Source of the DNA: an uncultured Bacteroidales bacterium
GTDB lineage: Bacteria > Bacteroidota > Bacteroidia > Bacteroidales > FEN-979
Assembly: GCA_903915465.1 (NCBI GenBank)
Contig: CAIWTA010000139.1
Span: 1-42,413, forward strand
Length of the DNA stretch: 42,413 nt
Reading direction: 5' to 3'
Shown: positions 778-4,622 of the stretch, piece after piece
How positions within the stretch are numbered: position 1 is the first letter of the stretch
Layout: the number at the start of each line of letters is the position of its first letter
Notes under the pieces: model-generated
Database searches by the model: none
What the model was told of the DNA's origin: nothing
What the model saw: only the letters and a program-made list of their open reading frames with translations
Made by a program: the position numbers and the translations under genes

Positions 778-817
778 GATAATATTTTAAAGAAACAATT
801 TGAACATTTCTCCCTGT

Positions 818-846
818 TTTGTAATTCAAAATAATTATTACTTTTG
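818..846 (+). promoter_or_regulatory. Bacteroidota-type promoter of metK
   Basis: A TTTG at 818-821 and a TACTTTTG at 839-846 match the Bacteroidota -33 (TTTG) and -7 (TAnnTTTG) boxes. The 17-base spacing is slightly shorter than the usual ~19. Transcription would start near 852-855, just ahead of the riboswitch-like fold at 857. Confidence 0.7.
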
Positions 847-852
847 CACCAC

Positions 853-905
853 AAAATGTGGAAAGATTTGATTGATTGCAACCACAGGAAAAAATGCTAA
901 AACAA
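853..905 (+). ncRNA. SAM-II-like riboswitch in the metK leader
   Basis: Five bases, TGTGG (857-861), pair with CCACA (882-886). The enclosed loop contains GATTT (865-869) and ATTGCAA (875-881). The downstream strand reads AAAAAAT (889-895) and GCTAAAAC (896-903). This is the order of conserved parts in the SAM-II class: P1, a loop with GAUUU and AUUGCAA, P1', a pseudoknot strand AAAU, then GCUAAAA. ATTT in the loop can pair with AAAT after the stem to give the pseudoknot. The element sits at the predicted transcript start and about 70 bases before metK, whose product makes SAM. SAM-II riboswitches are known to control methionine and SAM genes. The linker before GCTAAAA is shorter than in the best-studied example, and SAM-V shares the same core, so the exact class is uncertain. 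Confidence 0.72.
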
Positions 906-975
906 AATTTCCTTCCGCTCAATCTTCAAATCCATTTTATTCTGAATTAATCATTTAACTAATAATCAATTTATC

Positions 976-2936: not shown

Positions 2937-4622
2937 ATGAAAAAATTTACATTGTCCCTGTTTTTGCTGATCGCTGCAACGATCGTTTACAGCCAGTCTC
3001 CCCGAATGGTTCTCCAGGAGGAATTCACTTCATCTACCTGCGCTCCATGCGCATCAGCTAATCCAACCTTTCATAATTGGCTGGTTCAACATCCGGATAT
3101 ATACACAGCTATTTTCTGGCACTGCAATTGGCCTTCTCCTGGAAATGACCCGATGTATCTTGCCAACACTACAGAGAATGGCGCAAGGATCAGTTATTAT
3201 TCCGTGAACAGTATTCCCTGGGCTTTTGTCGATGGAAATGTATATGCGAATAATGGTCTTTCACTGACATGGCCGGTTATCCAGAACCGTTCAGCCGTTC
3301 TCTCGCCTTTTACCATAAATCTTCAACACCAGCTCAATGCTGCCCAGGATTCTATCTTTGTAACCATGCTTGTTGCATGCACTCAGGCTGTCGCAGCTTC
3401 AATGGTTGCACACAATGTCGTGATTGAGAAACATGTCCATTTCACAACTGCGCCCGGAAGCAACGGAGAAAAGGATTTCTACAATGTCATGAAGAAAATG
3501 CTTCCCGGAAAAGACGGGACAGACCTTATGCTAAGCTACGTACCCGGCGATTACAGTGTGATGCAATATGGCTGGAAACTGGCCAATGTGTACGACATCA
3601 ATCAACTTGGAGCGATAAGTTTTGTTCAGAACAAATCAACAAAAGAGGTTTATCAGGCAGCAAACAGCTCCGCAGAAGTCATTACCATGCCATTTAACAA
3701 TGATGCGGAAATGATGAATGTCAGCAATTATTCAACTGTCAGTTGCACAGGCAAGATCAATCCTGTTGTAGAGATCCGCAACAACGGAAACAATCCTATC
3801 ACTTCGGTGGAAATCAAATACCAGGTAAATGACGAACCGGTGAGTATCTTTACATGGACTGGCAACCTGGCGACTTTGAGTAAAGCCAGTGTGACACTTC
3901 CGGAATATATATTCACTCCGATGTTACAGAACACGCTGAAGATCTTTTCCAACAATCCGAATAATGTCGCCGACGAATATCCGAAAAATGATACCGCTAC
4001 TATTTCAATCGCCGGTCCAACAATAACGCACAATCTTGTATATGTTTCAATCAGAACAGATAATGCACCTGGCGAAACAACCTGGGATGTCAGGAACGAA
4101 GCCAGCGTTTTAATAAAGAGTGGCGGTCCTTATACGATTCCCATTCACATGTACAGGGATACGGTCGACCTTCCCAGCACAGGATGCTATACTTTTACGA
4201 TCTATGATTCAGGTGGAAACGGGATTTGCTGCGGAAACGGAACGGGGGTTTATACTTTGTCAACATCCTCCCCATCAGTCACTATCAAATCGGGTAATAT
4301 TTTTAACAGTTCTGAATTCACCGAATTCAGCATGGATTGGGCCACGGGGATCAGGGACATACAAGAAAACGGATTTAATGTTTATCCGAATCCGTTCGAA
4401 GGAACTGCGAGAATGACATTTACTACAGCCAGGTCAGGATATGTAACAATCAATCTTTACAATACTTTTGGGCAACCGGTTAAAACCATTAACGAGGGCA
4501 TCATGCATTCAGGAAACCACGAGTTGACATTGGATGCAAAAGAGCTTCCGGCAGGTTTTTATATATTGAAAGTTCAAGCCGATTCAGAAGTCTTCACAAA
4601 GAAAATTTCTTTGCACAGATAG
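2937..4622 (+). CDS. T9SS-exported protein with Omp28/thioredoxin-like N-terminal domain
   Basis: This is a 561-residue protein with an N-terminal signal peptide (about residues 1-20, ending VYSQ). Directly after it comes EEFTSSTCAPCAS, with a CxxC pair at Cys35 and Cys38, as in the Omp28-related and thioredoxin-like domains of Bacteroidota surface proteins. The middle contains a region with beta-sandwich character. The last ~80 residues, from VYPNPFEG to KKISLHR, are a type A T9SS sorting domain (YPNP start, GFYILKV, final KKI). The protein is therefore probably secreted through the outer membrane and attached to the surface or released. The CxxC suggests redox or disulfide activity, but this is inferred. 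The neighbouring gene is convergent and ends 12 bases away. Confidence 0.85.
   Translation: MKKFTLSLFLLIAATIVYSQSPRMVLQEEFTSSTCAPCASANPTFHNWLVQHPDIYTAIFWHCNWPSPGNDPMYLANTTENGARISYYSVNSIPWAFVDGNVYANNGLSLTWPVIQNRSAVLSPFTINLQHQLNAAQDSIFVTMLVACTQAVAASMVAHNVVIEKHVHFTTAPGSNGEKDFYNVMKKMLPGKDGTDLMLSYVPGDYSVMQYGWKLANVYDINQLGAISFVQNKSTKEVYQAANSSAEVITMPFNNDAEMMNVSNYSTVSCTGKINPVVEIRNNGNNPITSVEIKYQVNDEPVSIFTWTGNLATLSKASVTLPEYIFTPMLQNTLKIFSNNPNNVADEYPKNDTATISIAGPTITHNLVYVSIRTDNAPGETTWDVRNEASVLIKSGGPYTIPIHMYRDTVDLPSTGCYTFTIYDSGGNGICCGNGTGVYTLSTSSPSVTIKSGNIFNSSEFTEFSMDWATGIRDIQENGFNVYPNPFEGTARMTFTTARSGYVTINLYNTFGQPVKTINEGIMHSGNHELTLDAKELPAGFYILKVQADSEVFTKKISLHR

Follow-up and report, generated by a model that had tools for sequence, protein, structure and literature searches.

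A SAM-II riboswitch before metK in a Bacteroidales bacterium and a co-varying downstream strand as its putative antiaptamer

How can a riboswitch turn off a gene whose leader lacks the usual on/off parts? This question is raised by the metK leader of an uncultured Bacteroidales bacterium (assembly GCA_903915465.1, contig CAIWTA010000139.1), which lies near the start of the 42,413-nucleotide stretch of DNA that was analysed, hereafter the window. Leaders of Bacteroidota seldom show Shine-Dalgarno (SD) sequences. The way in which riboswitches act in this phylum is poorly known and, besides, the metK leader shows no terminator. The features discussed below are collected in Table 1.

Table 1. Features of the metK leader and their positions in the window
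Feature	Position	Strand	Basis
Bacteroidota-type promoter	817-846	+	TTTTG 817-821; -7 element TACTTTTG 839-846 (consensus TAnnTTTG); read in sequence
SAM-II (long loop) aptamer, RF01726	852-910	+	cmscan, 72.4 bits; same element 5' of metK in relatives
P1 stem	857-861:882-886	+	SAM-II model match
GATTT, putative L1 strand	865-869	+	
ATTGCAA	875-881	+	
GCTAAA	896-901	+	
Putative antiaptamer strand	908-932	+	MFE fold; growing-transcript fold; loop-matched complementarity; family alignment
A/T-rich spacer to start codon	933-975	+	length varies among relatives; no terminator-like site
metK, S-adenosylmethionine synthetase, 446 aa	976-2316	+	ORF; TIGR01034, 502.7 bits

A sequence-only reading of this locus had placed a SAM-II riboswitch at the 5' end of metK and had proposed a covariance scan as a check. 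When the whole window was scanned with cmscan, the long-loop SAM-II model of Rfam (RF01726) was matched at 72.4 bits (E 3.1e-12; gathering cut-off, 44 bits) over model positions 1-60 of 60, with one deletion, and the assignment is therefore borne out. SAM-II alone gave a match above gathering within the 42 kb, and no second copy was found in a search of the 4.07 Mb genome. The SAM-V model had no match in the window, where at E values up to 1 just SAM-II and one chance sRNA match appeared; SAM-V identity is thus rejected.

The positions of P1, ATTGCAA and GCTAAA agree with those given in the sequence-only reading. On the other hand, its pairing of AAAT with GATTT as the pseudoknot is at odds with the published SAM-II structures as read here. 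By analogy with the metX SAM-II structure, P2a is instead assigned to TTG (872-874) with CAA (903-905), P2b to GCA (878-880) with TGC (895-897), and GATTT would be the strand that forms the L1 triples. Nor does the short linker before GCTAAAA mark a variant, as had been surmised: the full model is matched with its single deletion, and the length in relatives is equal to within one nucleotide. As for SAM-II leaders in general, the gene 3' of the aptamer, metK, belongs to SAM/methionine metabolism. Judged from its sequence, the candidate behaves as a SAM-II RNA in all the features tested; it is an ordinary member of the class, and there is nothing new in the aptamer itself.

Promoter and aptamer adjoin each other. 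The motif TAnnTTTG occurs at most 45 nt from P1 in 189 of 244 loci, most commonly 9-14 nt upstream of it, and such closeness across loci indicates that transcription begins at P1 or immediately upstream of it; in the window, the start of transcription would accordingly fall near 851-853. Hence, the earlier view of a promoter directly upstream is confirmed; a transcription start that nearly coincides with the aptamer, as was also surmised, is the norm for SAM-II (PMC1273637, 2005). From the end of the aptamer (910) to the metK ATG there are 66 nt, and from GCTAAA to the ATG, 74 nt; beyond +45 from GCTAAA the spacer is merely A/T-rich. No SD sequence was seen in the metK leader, and no intrinsic terminator-like site was found in 700-1100, as the sequence-only reading had anticipated for the stretch before the ATG; its suggestion that control may act without a terminator gains support from this absence. 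With regard to the neighbouring genes, a partial GldA-like ABC transporter ATPase (199-777) lies just 5' of the metK promoter, and 3' of metK there are (i) a 174-aa ORF (2306-2830) with no NCBIfam match, by eye a CYTH/adenylate-cyclase-like small protein; and (ii) an Omp28-related protein with a type IX secretion sorting tail (2937-4622).

Published SAM-II leaders have one of two kinds of expression platform: a terminator or an SD sequence within the pseudoknot. Proteobacterial SAM-II leaders (A. tumefaciens metA, S. meliloti metZ/metA; PMC1273637, PMC9373788) share with this locus the aptamer class, the promoter just before P1 and, as expected here, the OFF logic, but in them intrinsic terminators are predicted or demonstrated, or else an SD sequence lies near the aptamer. 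Here, neither is found (no GC-rich hairpin with a U run after it precedes the gene in 700-1100), and a putative antiaptamer strand follows the pseudoknot. The Sargasso Sea metX SAM-II (2QWY) shares, by homology, the core of an H-type pseudoknot; its SD sequence lies within that pseudoknot, whereas here 74 nt separate GCTAAA from the ATG (52-209 nt in relatives), so that SD occlusion of the metX type does not fit. With the long-loop SAM-II (RF01726; Weinberg et al. 2010, PMC2864571) the locus has in common the full model match, the occurrence in Bacteroidetes and the downstream methionine/SAM gene, but the matched model stops at 910 and leaves the antiaptamer strand outside; adding the strand would lengthen the Rfam model by about 40 nt. 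In short, the aptamer is known, while the expression platform differs from both published kinds and is apparently new. A search of the open literature turned up no account of an antiaptamer strand that co-varies with the loop in SAM-II.

In the MFE fold, the strand just downstream pairs back with the aptamer through TTTCCT (908-913, with 886-891), CAATC (920-924, with 874-878) and TCAAATC (926-932, with 865-871). Its partners in the aptamer are the L1 strand, the pseudoknot 5' strand and the linker; since the pairing takes up L1, the P2 5' strand and the linker, it would exclude both P1 and the SAM pocket. With standard energies, the fold with P1 alone has -3.9 kcal/mol versus -13.9 kcal/mol for the antiaptamer fold. 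In folding of the growing transcript, a thermodynamic calculation that leaves out the pseudoknot and the energy of the ligand, P1 has a probability of 0.96 up to about 912, and the antiaptamer reaches 0.99 at 932.

Taken alone, the window does not make the case: its duplex is no better than those of dinucleotide shuffles (z -0.93, p 0.18), and the folding stability of its leader is not unusual (z -0.32). Within the host's family, too, the per-locus shuffle test of the duplex is mostly non-significant, because the aptamer hardly varies there, and tests that swap loops among loci were used instead. Furthermore, a strong antiaptamer is not present in every locus (e.g., L066, L151 and L169), and locating the best duplex across the whole leader, to see whether the strand is tied to the aptamer or to the ATG, proved too noisy.

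The loop-swap tests point to a strand that changes together with the aptamer loop. In a first set of 89 dereplicated loci, which comprised 27 variants of the aptamer loop, pairing of the loop with its own downstream strand came to -9.66 kcal/mol, versus -7.93 kcal/mol with the strands of other variants (z -5.3, p 5e-5; equalled in 0 of 20,000 permutations). The signal was confined to about +8 to +46 from GCTAAA, and the controls (two upstream regions and +53-103) were null. A second set of 87 further loci, nearly all from the order-wide scan (76 dereplicated and unlike the first set), repeated the signal, with z -5.1 for 3-53 and z -6.2 for 8-30 (p 5e-5), again with null controls. Relatedness was controlled for by comparing close relatives (MetK N-terminal identity of at least 0.75) that have different loops: 56 pairs favoured the own strand over the swapped one, 16 showed the opposite and 9 were ties (p 1.2e-6 by sign test), and the control regions gave ratios of about 1:1 (46:49, 42:53, 48:46).

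Individual loci illustrate the matching of loop and strand: GAGTAG/CTACTC in L033, L038, L039 and L048; GAGCA/TGCTC in L056, of the same family and, together with L033, of one genus; GGTTGA/TCAACC in L207; GGCCG/CGACC in L256 and L266; and GAGATGA/TTATCTC in L247. In the host's family, by contrast with such changes across families, the consensus 3' of the aptamer is TTTCCTYCC-n-TCAATC-nn-CAAATC, and the near-invariance of CAATC in that alignment, where the aptamer side hardly varies either, could suggest that the strand at 908-932 serves as a protein or DNA site or belongs to the tertiary fold of the bound form, its complementarity to the aptamer being incidental; given that from family to family the strand alters in step with the loop, with strong swap statistics, this reading is very improbable. 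The antiaptamer pairing is well supported by co-variation, and the case for it is a comparative one, made across loci and not from the window alone. That the leader is a SAM-II OFF switch in which an antiaptamer hairpin constitutes the SAM-free state can be regarded as likely, leaving aside how the output is produced. Accordingly, the SAM-II assignment of the sequence-only reading stands and its linker variant does not, and the co-varying strand at 908-932 had escaped it.

The following course of events may be proposed. The literature describes SAM-II elements on methionine/SAM genes as OFF switches, and the product of metK synthesizes SAM; hence, repression by SAM is expected, and both SAM binding and OFF logic would follow from the aptamer family and the gene. 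The metK mRNA would start almost at P1, with SAM-II working as a feedback OFF switch, and P1 would form first during transcription. If SAM is bound by about position 932, the pseudoknot would persist and the pyrimidine-rich 908-932 would stay single-stranded. If SAM is scarce, 908-932 would invade the aptamer and pair with L1, the P2 5' strand and the linker; the resulting antiaptamer hairpin would be blind to SAM, and metK would be ON. This folding order is the one predicted by growing-transcript thermodynamics without pseudoknot or ligand. As the antiaptamer would form after about 27 nt more past the aptamer, there would be a short time for SAM to act, after which the RNA would be committed. 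Most riboswitches work by alternative pairing of this general kind.

For the last step, the leading guess, held with rather less than even confidence, is that the released strand, G-poor and pyrimidine-rich, loads Rho, and that transcription then ends before metK. Folding with the bound state forced (pseudoknot and SAM binding energy not included) raises the mean accessibility of the downstream strand in the family from 0.39 to 0.58. C exceeds G in 96% of the leaders, and 906-975 contains 0.21 C and 0.03 G, an excess as large as which occurs in 1.6% of 431 control upstream regions. However, the strand is C-rich and G-poor mostly because it is antisense to the purine-rich aptamer; the excess is therefore not independent evidence for Rho and was discounted as a sign of a rut site. 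Of the 43 family genomes, 40 have a rho gene above cut-off, all four congeners among them. In the host assembly (329 contigs, rated 98.95% complete) none was found with TIGR00767 or PF07497, which is probably an assembly gap. The proposed likeness is to Rho-controlling riboswitches (Hollands et al. 2012; Bastet et al. 2017), in which, as reported through PMC12121620, the ligand state gates a single-stranded leader for Rho; the gating is shown there by experiment, whereas here it is a guess.

Somewhat less probable than loading of Rho, but a serious possibility nonetheless, is that SAM turns translation off, the released strand or the bound aptamer itself hindering ribosomes at the metK start. 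For the metX SAM-II, translational control by occlusion is established (PMC10907184), and in the window the forced-bound fold, computed with the same omissions, lowers start-codon access from 0.55 to 0.43; the family mean, however, hardly changes (0.52 to 0.50). Complementarity between strand and start region is somewhat over that of permuted combinations (z -3.5), but the background controls range from -1.1 to -2.5, and pairing of the strand with the start codon was rejected as weak, near the background of compositional controls; the 3' half of the aptamer is not complementary to the start region (z 0.2). Moreover, the strand keeps a nearly constant distance from GCTAAA, whereas that to the ATG varies among relatives as given above, and no SD sequence is seen in the leader. 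Improbable, by comparison, is an intrinsic terminator farther downstream: although terminators have been published for many SAM-II representatives (PMC1273637, PMC9373788) and T-rich stretches follow the strand in some relatives, 700-1100 holds no terminator-like site, the partner matched to the loop is the aptamer itself, and the sole strong hairpin is the antiaptamer, which would form without SAM and so has the wrong logic for metK. Other routes, for example RNA decay, take up the remainder.

If gating of Rho is kept as the last step, a wider claim can be formulated: SAM-II riboswitches of Bacteroidota would share an undescribed platform, namely, a strand that lies 8-46 nt beyond the pseudoknot, co-evolves with the loop, forms a SAM-blind hairpin once it is transcribed and, in its released form, gates Rho. 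As a whole, this claim is tentative. If true, it would mean that genes can be switched off without a terminator and without an SD sequence in a phylum whose mRNAs mostly lack the latter. The putative antiaptamer suggests how a switch may work in a leader that lacks the usual on/off parts, and a co-varying strand behind SAM-II in many families constitutes a testable part of the question of how Bacteroidota riboswitches act.

SAM-II elements of Bacteroidetes were already published between 2005 and 2010 (PMC1273637, PMC2864571). In the genomes surveyed here, SAM-II was above cut-off in 37 of 43 from the host's family (with an invariant core in the alignment), 284 of 392 from its order and 59 of 396 from a sample of its class, and metK was 3' of the element in nearly all the survey loci that were read. 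A pattern search of contigs contributed 79 named Bacteroidota loci; as it used AAGTGCTAAA and not AATGCTAAA, these sample only the GTGCTAAA variants.

Several departures from the common layout were observed. In marine Flavobacteriaceae and relatives (L107, L111, L112, L122, L125, L134, L147, L148, L160, L166 and L180), SAM-II lies 5' of an O-acetylhomoserine sulfhydrylase-like gene, and the antiaptamer strand of these loci is mostly GTCAAATC; in L242, the element lies 5' of a methionine synthase-like gene (both genes were assigned by inspection of the protein sequence and not with a profile). In L079, L080, L083, L084, L065 and L058, P1 and GCTAAA are separated by an insert that is tens of bases long and often forms a hairpin. 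Finally, in L032, L035, L049, L058, L079 and L083, all outside the host's order, the aptamer is followed by CTTTAGC/T, a stretch complementary to the core GCTAAAG which, to judge by this complementarity, is perhaps a second way of disarming the aptamer.
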